Source: Hyphomonas sp.
GTDB lineage: Bacteria > Pseudomonadota > Alphaproteobacteria > Caulobacterales > Hyphomonadaceae
Length of the DNA: 64,000 nucleotides
Assembly: GCF_013823385.1 (NCBI RefSeq)
Contig: NZ_PNMA01000002.1
Span: 62,001 to 126,000 of the forward strand
Reading direction: 5' to 3'
Part shown: piece after piece, positions 5,825 to 63,852 of the stretch
How the letters are laid out: each line of letters opens with the position of its first letter
How positions within the stretch are numbered: position 1 is the stretch's first letter
Position numbers and translations under genes: made by a program
The notes under the pieces: model-generated
Told to the model about the DNA's origin: nothing
Seen by the model: the letters and a program-made list of their open reading frames with translations, nothing else
The model's database searches: none

Positions 5825-5900
5825 GTAACACTCCGAATACGGAATCATGTTCGCAGAATGTTCTGGCCGATTCCTGGATTCGTTCAAGTGGAATCTGCTG

Positions 5901-43074: not shown

Positions 43075-43406
43075 GGGGCTTCAACTGCATTTGGATATAA
43101 CGACGATCGAAAGTTTGAACCGGATGGGGTGGAAGGCAAGCGCCTTGCGGATAGGCGGATGGTGCGGCCGGTATCGCATATTCAGATGGTGAAGCGCTTT
43201 AAGTGCTGGCATGCTAAACAGAATAAAACGTGAACATGGGGAATCGACTCAGGGTTGCGAATCCGCTCCTATGAGTTGCCGCCGAATCGCCCGCCAGCGA
43301 CCGGGGCTTATGTTCAAACGTTGGAGTGCGATTGGTCTTGGTTAGAACCCCACCTTTTGGAGCCGGGACTCAGGGTCAATTAACTCTGCAACACAAGGAG
43401 TTCTCA
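43075..43406. other. Gene-free stretch
   Basis: 332 bases of lower GC than the surroundings. No convincing coding frame, RNA gene or strong repeat was seen apart from one GTTGGAGT at 43320 and the ribosome site AAGGAG (43395-43400) of the next gene. Confidence 0.5.
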
Positions 43407-61044: not shown

Positions 61045-61637
61045 GTAGGAAGCACTTTCCGGATACGGAGGTAGTCCAGGAGCGGCAGCAGGGGCAGACC
61101 GAGAATGGAGAAATAATCTCCCTCGATCCGCGCAAACAGCTGCGCGCCCAGACCCTCGAGCTGGTAAGCCCCCACAGTCGAGAGAAGCGCGTCGCCACAG
61201 GCCGAAACATAGGTTTCGATGAATTCTTCCGTGAGCGGGCGCATGGTCAGTTTCGGCCGGGCTAGGTGGCGCCAGACTGGCGCGCCATCCTCGCAGACGA
61301 CAATCGCGGTTTCCAGCGTGTGGGATTTGCCCGACAGCTGGCGCAGATGGTTTTTCGCCGCCTCAAGATCAGCGGGCTTGTCGAAGGCCTGATCGCCAAG
61401 GGCGAGCATCTGGTCCCCGCCGATCACAAGACCGGGGCGCTGGGCTGATACGCGCATCGCCTTGAGCTCCGCCAGCTGCATCGCCTGCTCGCGCACGGGC
61501 AGCCTGTTGGCGCGCATCGCGTTGCGGAAGGCTTCCTCATCCACATTCGGCGCGGCGCTCTCGGCTTCAACACCGGCAGCGGCCAGCAGCGCGCGGCGGC
61601 TCTTGCTGGTGGATGCAAGCGTGACGGCAAGGCTCAT
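61041..61637 (-). CDS. maf: Maf-family nucleotide pyrophosphatase
   Basis: 198 residues. Hydrolyses non-canonical or modified NTPs. The N-terminal TLASTSKSRRALL and the VIGGDQMLAL segment with the catalytic Asp are visible; later HTLETAIVVCEDG and VGAYQLEGLGAQLF. Coupled by 4-base overlaps with ppsR and aroE. Confidence 0.94.
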   Translation of the reverse strand: MSLAVTLASTSKSRRALLAAAGVEAESAAPNVDEEAFRNAMRANRLPVREQAMQLAELKAMRVSAQRPGLVIGGDQMLALGDQAFDKPADLEAAKNHLRQLSGKSHTLETAIVVCEDGAPVWRHLARPKLTMRPLTEEFIETYVSACGDALLSTVGAYQLEGLGAQLFARIEGDYFSILGLPLLPLLDYLRIRKVLPT

Positions 61638-62476
61638 GAATGCCCCCAGCGTTCATGCAGCATGTTGAGAATGCCGGCGGCAGTCTCTTCCACCGAGCGG
61701 CGGGAGACATCTATCGTTTTCCAGCCATTGCGCTGGAACAGGCGGTTGGCCTGGGTGATCTCGTCGCGCACGGCTTCTTCGTCAGCGTATTCGGTGATCT
61801 CGTCCTGGTTCAGCGAGATGAGCCGCTGACGGCGGATCTGCACGAGGCGTTCGGCGGAAATCTTGAGGCCGACAACCAGCGGGCCCTTGTCGCCCAGTTT
61901 TTCCATGAAGTCCGGCAGCGGCACGCCGGGCACCAGCGGGATATTCCCGGCCCTCACCTTCCGGTTTGCCAGATATACGCAGGTTGGCGTTTTCGACGTG
62001 CGGCTGACGCCCAGGAGGATGACATCGGCGCCGATCAGGCCTTCCACATTCTGCCCATCATCATGGGCCAGGGTGAAGTTGATCGCTTCCATCCGCTCGA
62101 AATAGTCTTCGTCGAGGGCGTGCTGGCCGGCGACCCGGTTGTTCGGGGCCACACCCAGATGGCGGCTCAGCATGGCAATTGACGGGTCCAGCACCGGCAG
62201 GGTGGGTATGCTCCGCTCACGGCAGAAGGCTTCCAGCCGGCCGCGCAGCGCGCCGTCCGAAATGGTGTACCACACCACACCGGGGGCCGCCTCGATCTCC
62301 TTCATCACTCTTTCAAGCTGACGTTCGGAGCGAACGAGGTAATAGTTGTGTTCCAGCGGCTGCACATTCTCGAACTGGGCGCAGGCCGCGCGCTGGATGG
62401 CGTTGAGCGTCTCGCCCGTACTGTCGGACACGAGATGCACATTGAAGTAGATGCTGGGGCGTTGAGGCTGGGTCAC
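61634..62476 (-). CDS. ppsR: Pyruvate,phosphate dikinase / PEP synthase regulatory protein
   Basis: DUF299 kinase/phosphorylase controlling PPDK or PEP synthase by ADP-dependent phosphorylation. 280 residues from a GTG at 62476, 14 codons before FNVHLVSDSTGET, as in relatives; in-frame ATGs at 62527 and 62548 would extend it into the GANTC-rich origin region. P-loop GVSRTSKTPTCVYLAN. First gene of the leftward ppsR-maf-aroE-coaE-dnaQ run. Confidence 0.92.
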   Translation of the reverse strand: MTQPQRPSIYFNVHLVSDSTGETLNAIQRAACAQFENVQPLEHNYYLVRSERQLERVMKEIEAAPGVVWYTISDGALRGRLEAFCRERSIPTLPVLDPSIAMLSRHLGVAPNNRVAGQHALDEDYFERMEAINFTLAHDDGQNVEGLIGADVILLGVSRTSKTPTCVYLANRKVRAGNIPLVPGVPLPDFMEKLGDKGPLVVGLKISAERLVQIRRQRLISLNQDEITEYADEEAVRDEITQANRLFQRNGWKTIDVSRRSVEETAAGILNMLHERWGHS

Positions 62477-62817
62477 GGATGTCTCTTGCCGGTCTGGCGC
62501 CGATTTCACAAGGGGTGTGACTCCCATGTGGAATTCCAAATCACACACACGGATTCACAGGCGACTCACAATTGCAGGATTCTCACCTCTGGAGAGTCAC
62601 GCTGCGTTCTCCTCTGTGATTCCAACACGGACGTTTACACCCTGTTAACCATTGACTCATTTCGGATTTGAAACGCCACAGCATCGCGGGCCAATCTGTG
62701 ACTCGCCTGTGGATTTGCCGGGATAAAGCGTTAACAGATGGGTTATCCCTGAATCCCTCGGGGTTATAATCATAAGCGCCCTGACGGGCATTTAGATGAG
62801 ATTGGGAAGGGGACTTC
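62477..62817. other. Candidate chromosomal replication origin (hemE-proximal oriC)
   Basis: A 341-base gap between the divergent ppsR and hemE genes. GANTC sites start at 62519, 62552, 62563, 62578, 62594, 62618, 62654, 62700 and 62751: nine in 237 bases, against about one expected by chance. Six of them are part of GANTCAC or TGTGANTC, which resemble DnaA boxes. TGTGGATTT (62708) keeps the DnaA core ATCCACA in reverse. TTTA-N7-TTAA at 62634-62648 matches the CtrA consensus with one change; TTAA-N7-GTTA at 62731-62745 is a weaker one. The Caulobacter origin lies next to hemE with the same kinds of sites. Origin function is inferred. Confidence 0.65.
62742..62770 (+). promoter_or_regulatory. 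hemE promoter overlapping a CtrA-like site
   Basis: A perfect TATAAT lies at 62765-62770, with TTATCC at 62743 as a poor -35, 16 bases upstream. The -35 overlaps the second half of the TTAA-N7-GTTA box, so CtrA binding there would block both hemE transcription and origin opening, as reported for Caulobacter. Confidence 0.45.
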
Positions 62818-63852
62818 GTGGCAACGTCCGTTAAGAAATTGCTGGCTGTACTGTCAGGCGAGGCTGTGAAACCACCTCCGGTGTGGATGATGCGCCAGGC
62901 TGGGCGCCACCTGCCCGAATATCTGGAGACGAGAGCGAGAGCGAAAGACTTTCTCGATTTCTGCTACACCCCGTCCCTTGCCACCGAAGCCACGCTTCAA
63001 CCCATCCGCCGCTATGGCATGGACGGGGCAATCCTCTTCGCAGACATCCTGCTCATCCTGGATGCGATGGGTCTGAAAGTGGCTTTCGAGAAGGGAGAAG
63101 GCCCGCTGGTCGAACAGATTTCCGGCCCATCCGATCTGGGAAGGGTCACGCCTCAGAAAGCGGCCGACCGTCTCGCGCCTGTCTATGAAACCGTTTCCCG
63201 CGTGAAAGCCGCCCTGCCTTCGTCCACCACGCTGATCGGATTTGCCGGTTCACCCTGGACGGTCAGCCTCTATGCCGTCGAGGGCCGGGGCAAGACCGAC
63301 AAGTCCACCGCCTGGCGCTGGGCCCATGGCCGGCCGGAGGATCTGGCAGCCGTAATGGATCAGGTCACCGAAGCGACAGCGCATTATCTTTCCCGCCAGG
63401 TCGAGGCCGGCGCCGATGCGCTGATGCTGTTTGACAGCTGGGCCGAGGGCCTTCCGGACAACATCTTCCGCGAAGTCGTCATCCAGCCGACGAAGAAGCT
63501 GGTCGCCCGGCTGCGGGAAATGGGCATCACGGTGCCGGTGATCGGATTTCCGCGCGGCGCGGGCGTCATGCTGCCCGAATATGTGCGGGAAACCGGGGTC
63601 ACAGCTGTTGGGCTGGACACGGCTGTCTCGCCCGCCTTCATCAATGCGCAGTTGCCGGCGGGTTTTCCGGTCCAGGGGCATCTTGATCCCCTCCTCCTGA
63701 TCGAAGGGGGCGGGCGACTTGACGCACGCGTCCGCGAATTGCTGGACGCCTACAAGGGACGGCCCCATATCTTCAATCTCGGTCATGGCATTCGCCCCGA
63801 GACCCCGATTGCGCATGTCGAACGTGTGCTGGAACTGATCAGAACCGAATAG
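62818..63852 (+). CDS. hemE: Uroporphyrinogen decarboxylase
   Basis: Heme pathway enzyme making coproporphyrinogen III. 344 residues from a GTG at 62818, with AAGGGG upstream. Signature RQAGRHLPEY near the N terminus, the catalytic Asp in FADILLILDAMG, and GFAGSPWTVSLYAVEG and DSWAEGL. Rightward from the candidate origin and followed 15 bases later by hemH. Confidence 0.97.
   Translation: MATSVKKLLAVLSGEAVKPPPVWMMRQAGRHLPEYLETRARAKDFLDFCYTPSLATEATLQPIRRYGMDGAILFADILLILDAMGLKVAFEKGEGPLVEQISGPSDLGRVTPQKAADRLAPVYETVSRVKAALPSSTTLIGFAGSPWTVSLYAVEGRGKTDKSTAWRWAHGRPEDLAAVMDQVTEATAHYLSRQVEAGADALMLFDSWAEGLPDNIFREVVIQPTKKLVARLREMGITVPVIGFPRGAGVMLPEYVRETGVTAVGLDTAVSPAFINAQLPAGFPVQGHLDPLLLIEGGGRLDARVRELLDAYKGRPHIFNLGHGIRPETPIAHVERVLELIRTE

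Follow-up and report, generated by a model that had tools for sequence, protein, structure and literature searches.

Introduction

Whether methylation of the DNA by CcrM acts directly on the start of replication is an unsettled question in the Alphaproteobacteria. The Hyphomonas DNA analysed here, a stretch of 64,000 nucleotides referred to below as the window, raises this question in a specific form: beside hemE, sites of adenine methylation (GANTC) share bases with the CACA cores of sites resembling those of the initiator DnaA, giving the composite motif GANTCACA. Is this region the origin of the chromosome, is the fusion of the two motifs maintained by selection, and which protein reads it?

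The hemE-side gap as probable replication origin

The region is a 338-bp gap (62480..62817) at the end of the window, between two genes which, as a first-pass annotation of this DNA had stated, point away from it on both sides. These are ppsR, encoding a regulator of pyruvate, phosphate dikinase/PEP synthase (61634..62479, minus strand; NF003742, 315.7 bits, cut-off 225), and hemE, encoding uroporphyrinogen decarboxylase (62818..63852, plus strand; TIGR01464, 368.5 bits, cut-off 302.95). Further minus-strand genes (maf-like, aroE, coaE and dnaQ) lie to the left of ppsR. The HemE of the window is 97% identical to that of a Hyphomonas sp. (L001) and 96% identical to that of H. polymorpha (L002).

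This putative origin beside hemE is very probably the start point of replication of this Hyphomonas chromosome. The assignment, which had been proposed earlier, is supported by marker-frequency sequencing in H. neptunium, reported to place the origin close to hemE (PMC6650430), by the conserved array of CtrA-like and DnaA-like boxes described below, by a trio-like AT-rich element and by nearby parS sites. The arrangement corresponds to that of Cori-type origins: the gap sits between divergent ppsR and hemE, and, as for parS/parAB within some kb of such an origin, two exact parS sites (L057, 5636 and 6159, equal to C2:131636 and C2:132159) are located approximately 7 kb to its right. Furthermore, CtrA is reported to bind beside the H. 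neptunium ori in ChIP-seq (PMC7200025), and in the 32 Hyphomonas gaps that were aligned, a CtrA-like site identified by sequence match alone occurs somewhere in the gap in 25/32 as exact TTAA-N7-TTAA and in 32/32 with at most one mismatch. In the window, the best match (TTTA-N7-TTAAC, one mismatch; 62634..62649, plus strand) falls within the array itself, with the composite at 62615 on one side and that at 62697 on the other, and a weak second one (two mismatches) is found at 62730..62745 on the minus strand. The CtrA-like boxes therefore do not simply flank the cluster, as the first-pass annotation had described them.

The AT-rich element GGTTATAATCATAAG (62762..62776, plus strand) reads like a run of DnaA-trios, defined as 3'-(G/A)AT-5' (PMC10797057), and its AT content and this definition suggest a role in unwinding. 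The alignment columns in which it is held (301-320) are 66% AT in the 32 gaps, compared with 30-60% in the other 20-column bins. Just upstream of hemE, the aligned Hyphomonas gaps also contain a near-invariant GCGCCCTGACGGGC (62776-62789), which could form a short hairpin, GCCC-TGAC-GGGC.

GC skew, of which a sign change at this position had been named as possible support, points the other way in the contig itself. Contig C2 goes from plus to minus near 126 kb, opposite to the usual sense, and the local skew within 20-40 kb is likewise the wrong way round (+0.03 to the left of the gap, -0.04 to -0.05 to the right). In H. neptunium, GC skew and DnaA-box searches are reported to have given no clear result (PMC6650430). 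The complete genome of a relative (G021, HemE 91% identical), covered by 20 sampled stretches, has one arm of mostly positive skew and another of varying sign with a weakly negative mean. Placing the split at 700 kb, with hemE at 695 kb, gives a permutation P of 0.005, and the best eight positions of the fit, all tied, fall at 580-650 kb; because this sampling is coarse, the skew of G021 is taken as weak support for the origin.

A cluster of composite motifs

The nine GANTC sites that had been noted within 237 bases are confirmed, starting at 62519, 62552, 62563, 62578, 62594, 62618, 62654, 62700 and 62751 and spanning 62519-62755. Across the window GANTC is depleted (66 found, about 271 expected from dinucleotide shuffles), and this rarity makes the cluster in the gap a strong one: nine sites fall in the gap compared with 57 in the remaining 63.7 kb (Poisson P ~4e-11), and 5000 mono-nucleotide shuffles of the gap contain 1.3 sites on average and seven at most. 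Elsewhere in the window, a second cluster of five sites in 131 bp (43241-43371) surrounds the start (43326) of a 125-aa ORF without Pfam match, and four sites in 54 bp (5842-5895) lie at the 5' end of a 537-aa minus-strand ORF, also without Pfam match.

Copies that match GANTCACA exactly, on either strand, begin at 62516(-), 62552(+), 62563(+), 62615(-) and 62697(-). The earlier count of at least six GANTC sites embedded in GANTCAC(A) or its reverse thus stands with five exact copies and a sixth site, at 62594, which is GANTCAC only. In the whole genome (4,179,865 bases or 4.18 Mb, 172 contigs) GANTCACA occurs 61 times; five of these copies lie in the 338-bp gap, where 0.005 are expected (P ~2e-14), and, among the copies listed, never more than two per 1 kb are found elsewhere.

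The sites were compared in an alignment of 32 Hyphomonas gaps, and changes were counted by parsimony on a tree built from the coding sequences on either side. Of 53 named loci taken, 52 had both ppsR and hemE homologues aligned, and loci were labelled Hyphomonas on a hemE identity of at least 78% together with most record titles. L007 was left out of the gap counts, its contig ending 119 bases before the hemE match, and L016 (766-bp gap, short ppsR match) was left out of the alignment, its four composites being counted among the 33 gaps given below. L041 and L042 have identical figures in the gap count and are possibly one genome. Four loci (L008, L009, L012, L042) are titled Sulfopaludibacter, Acidobacteria or Cytophagaceae, yet possess hemE and ppsR of the Hyphomonadaceae type and are probably mislabelled.

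From the ppsR side onwards, the first composite, S1 (62516..62523, minus strand; GAGTCACA, reading TGTGACTC on the plus strand), is a composite in 26/32 aligned gaps, TNCACA in 5/32 and CACA only in 1/32. Its partner S1p, a DnaA-like box TGTGGA (62527..62532, minus strand), is located 11 bp away. On the plus strand follow S2 (GATTCACA, 62552..62559), a composite in 32/32, and, 11 bp from it, S3 (GACTCACA, 62563..62570), which is a composite in 13/32, TNCACA in 15/32 and CACA only in 4/32. The partial composite S4 (62594..62600, plus strand) reads GAGTCAC with G as the next base. On the minus strand lie S5 (62615..62622; GAATCACA, reading TGTGATTC on the plus strand), a composite in 31/32, and S6 (62697..62704), identical in sequence to S1 and a composite in 30/32, with its own TGTGGA partner S6p (62708..62713, minus strand) at a distance of 11 bp. 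The three remaining GANTC are non-composite, namely GATTC (62578..62582) and GACTC (62654..62658) in the array and GAATC (62751..62755) on its hemE side. The 11-bp spacing of S1-S1p, S2-S3 and S6-S6p is kept in 32/32 gaps, as is an S1-to-S6 distance of 179-183 bp.

Selection on the methylation site

In all 32 gaps the seven letters GA_TCACA of S2 are without change, and the N between them has changed five times (T 12, G 9, C 7, A 4); at S5, N has likewise changed five times and the other seven columns once. Taking S1, S2, S5 and S6 together, 17 changes fall in the four N columns and 8 in the 28 other columns (binomial P 1.8e-10), the background in the gap being 2.96 changes per column and the average for the N of GANTC 4.25. 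With the central N free and the other columns held, the composites display the signature of a methylation site, and, judged from this pattern of substitutions, the GANTC overlay is maintained by selection. CACA is invariant in 32/32 at S1, S2, S3, S5 and S6. The overlay is more variable between sites: S1 is without GANTC in six of the 32 species, five of these reading TNCACA, and S3 has it in 13/32, so that S2 is the only composite kept in all 32. When all 8-column windows were scanned blindly for a single free inner column surrounded by near-invariant ones, four emerged, including S2 and S5; column shuffles gave 0.5 windows on average and up to 11, and the scan alone is therefore not decisive.

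Distribution across the genus and its relatives

Conservation of the composite in close relatives, which the first-pass annotation had set as a check, is borne out. Exact GANTCACA is present in 3-5 copies per gap in 33/33 Hyphomonas-type gaps (32 loci and the window) and in 1/20 sister gaps (L032, two copies). Among 60 gaps of other genera and families, drawn from 119 genomes with a HemE match, three have a single copy (L105, L122, L135) and 57 have none, L138, in which no ppsR was found, being counted on the last 600 bases. Family f2, which we guess to be Caulobacteraceae, has a single copy in 1/12 gaps.

A tandem of composite, three bases and TGTGNA, which places the box 11 bp away, was searched for in 398 genomes, grouped by a 'same genus' label, and occurs in 38/38 same-genus genomes compared with 16/360 from elsewhere in the order; as a control, the reversed pattern occurs in 0/38 and 8/360, respectively. 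A HemE position was available for 13 of the same-genus genomes; their tandems are 108-321 bases away from the match to HemE, the exceptions being one extra tandem each in G115 and G051 on other contigs. Together with the substitution pattern, these comparisons make the composite an element that is shared across the genus and under selection, a finding which is new here.

Outside the genus, L122 (G092, family f3) has one tandem, TCCACAATTGAGTCACA, in a hemE gap of 27% GC, possibly a case of convergence; G217, of the same genus as G092, has the same tandem. A one-contig Hyphomonas genome (G200:C1:21-218) has a record that begins beside tandem composites.

DnaA as the likely reader of the CACA cores

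For E. coli DnaA, major-groove recognition of TNCACA is reported, with Arg399 reading the 5' TTA through the minor groove and no constraint on position 5 (PMC5742627, PMC5043019). Set against the DnaA box TTATNCACA, with T at position 4 and CACA at positions 6-9, the partner boxes (TGTGNA) agree with both features, whereas the composites keep CACA and have T4 in only 12 of the 132 composites in the alignment, all of them at S2. Most composites are thus poor DnaA boxes by the E. coli rule. The S1 partner also behaves as this rule predicts and opposite to the composites: in S1p position 4 is fixed and position 5 has changed three times in the 32 sequences. The TGTGGA of S6p has never changed.

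TGTGGA is found at the S1 position in 14/15 aligned sister gaps, L105 being without clean alignment there; these 15 derive from 32 (20 named and 12 of family f1), with Hirschia, Ponticaulis and others left out. A Hirschia gap outside this alignment (L036) has TGTGTACA at an apparently equivalent S1 place. Since S1 and S3 alternate between GANTCACA and TNCACA across species, one place can be occupied by a DnaA-like box or by a composite, and CACA is probably read by DnaA. Composites and partners together resemble the Caulobacter W-boxes, weak sites which are reported to depend on cooperation with G-boxes (PMC4468827). A two-way origin of the composites, from DnaA boxes gaining GANTC and from GANTC gaining CACA, was considered and dropped for S2, since, by alignment count, the Henriciella-like GANTC is displaced by 3 bases from S2 of Hyphomonas.

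The DnaA proteins themselves differ at one relevant residue. Opposite E. coli R399, a position which we place via the PRQ motif and take to follow the E. coli numbering, a lysine is found in 7/7 readable Hyphomonas sequences and 5/5 of genus g2 (12/12; L061 1465-2922, L154-L165), L157, an eighth Hyphomonas stretch with a wrong-frame match only, being left out. The residue is R in 28/29 readable DnaA of families f2, f3 and f4, the one K being in L064; L071 was unreadable, and family f5 is not among the loci. Bacillus DnaA has an arginine where the Hyphomonas lysine aligns. This family may differ in how the 5' half of DnaA boxes is read. As the cause of the composite the altered DnaA was rejected: all 10 g2 gaps are without composites, and the lysine change is thus insufficient. 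A separate 114-aa protein (L062 1453-1797) consists of nearly only DnaA domain IV (49 bits to TIGR00362, with matches to PRK06030 models too), and similar fragments recur in many relatives.

Methylation and regulator genes

The genome encodes DnaA and GcrA, both above model cut-off, and a homologue of CcrM (L063 718-1797), which scores 609 bits (2.1e-183) with NF050803, below the model cut-off of 830, and has a RAMA domain above cut-off. A ccrM gene, as required of a CcrM system, is thereby represented by this homologue. The SeqA model PF03925 matches none of 42 same-genus genomes, 38 of which were in the tandem search; among 14 control genomes it matches E. coli.

A proposed mode of action and its rivals

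We hold with moderate confidence that the gap is an origin in which DnaA sites are overlaid with a selected CcrM site, and in which methylation modulates the cooperation of DnaA onto the composites. We infer here that DnaA is the binder, that CcrM methylates the sites and that methylation affects initiation. The array would be made up of DnaA-type sites in which the CACA core is invariant; in three to five of them (five in the window) GANTC would lie over the 5' half and so form GANTCACA. DnaA would bind firmly to the canonical TNCACA boxes and reach the weak composites, one helical turn away, by cooperation. Methylation of the composites would be full before replication, half after passage of the fork, and full again once CcrM is present, late in the cycle. 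The methylation state would raise or lower the step of DnaA onto the composites, so that a just-fired origin would not be equivalent to a ready one. In favour of such a mechanism, full and half methylation in Caulobacter are reported to be timed by replication, with origin-near sites half methylated in approximately 80% of cells (PMC3973325). Counting against it, Caulobacter without ccrM is reported to have wild-type-like DNA content in minimal medium (PMC3973325).

This last observation also favours the strongest rival, in which two independent codes merely share bases: DnaA would need CACA, GANTC would be clustered for hemimethylation timing or CcrM loading, and methylation would have no effect on DnaA. 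Composite-free sister gaps can indeed be GANTC-rich (L035 7, L037 9, L038 6, L039 5), and the GANTC at 62578, 62654 and 62751 of the window are non-composite. The exact fusion at 3-5 sites in 33/33 gaps and the rigid 11-bp spacing, however, exceed what side-by-side clustering needs, and we consider this explanation somewhat unlikely.

A bolder form of the DnaA proposal appears to us a little less probable still. The Hyphomonas DnaA would read the methyl mark itself, with m6A in GANTCACA replacing the T4 contact, and only fully methylated composites would complete the array, so that CcrM would license the origin once per cycle without SeqA. If true, methylation would here directly license an origin based on DnaA.

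The scarcity of T4 among the composites, which makes most of them weak by the DnaA rule, could instead indicate that another protein reads them, for example a binder of hemimethylated GANTC with a preference for a CACA flank. Such a functional counterpart of SeqA would fill a role left vacant in the same-genus genomes by the missing match to the SeqA model. The alternation of composites with TNCACA at S1 and S3 and the location at the origin speak for DnaA, and the search among SeqA and GcrA yielded no candidate protein; a different reader is therefore distinctly improbable.

GcrA acts in Caulobacter at GANTC in front of genes and is encoded in this genome, and the sites could thus be part of the hemE and ppsR promoters, acting through GcrA and CcrM, instead of origin elements. 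A promoter, however, would not need CACA, which is invariant here, and the sites are distributed across the gap in both orientations at fixed spacing, which leaves a promoter role very unlikely. Chance or drift, in a genus too recent for the sites to have diverged, is suggested by the fact that all 32 aligned sequences belong to one genus by hemE similarity, yet it has next to no credibility with GA_TCACA at S2 unchanged in 32 sequences against the background rate of the gap and the still higher rate at N.

Comparison with known origins

The hemE-side place of the origin, GANTC in Caulobacter origins (PMC3973325) and methylation-bearing RctB sites (PMC2865523) are already known. The Cori of Caulobacter crescentus shares with the Hyphomonas gap the hemE side, CtrA boxes, weak DnaA boxes and several GANTC (PMC6650430, PMC4468827, PMC10797057, PMC3973325); its DnaA sites, in contrast, are two G-boxes and five W-boxes, and the accessible parts of these descriptions contain no GANTC-DnaA fusion. 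The closest analogue is provided by the RctB 11-/12-mers of Vibrio cholerae chromosome II, repeated initiator sites each with an adenine-methylation site, good initiator binding being reported to require full methylation (PMC2865523). The V. cholerae system combines RctB with Dam/GATC, whereas Hyphomonas would combine a putative DnaA reader with CcrM/GANTC, and methylation dependence is conjectural in the latter. Furthermore, unlike in the RctB array, not every initiator site has a methylation site: S1p and S6p have none, and S3 has one in 13/32.

The oriC of E. coli is similarly dense in methylation sites, with 11 GATC (PMC5742627), but its sequestration needs SeqA, for which the same-genus genomes gave no model match. 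The repABC origins of alphaproteobacterial secondary replicons are GANTC-rich, and the methylation level is reported to alter initiation at Agrobacterium ori2 (PMC11514494); they differ in their RepC initiator, the in vitro binding of which is reported as methylation-independent (PMC6090056). Searches of the open-licence literature yielded no earlier description of DnaA-type sites with a built-in GANTC.

Significance for Hyphomonas

An excess of CcrM in Caulobacter is reported to lead to extra chromosomes (PMC3973325). The retention of the composite across the genus points to methylation as a possible direct gate on replication initiation. Hyphomonas offers a concrete test case for such an effect, with a methylation site built into a putative DnaA array and with few exact sites (S2, S5, S6), and the species with TNCACA at S1 or S3 provide a natural comparison. 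The unclear outcome of DnaA-box searches in H. neptunium may likewise be due in part to these composites.
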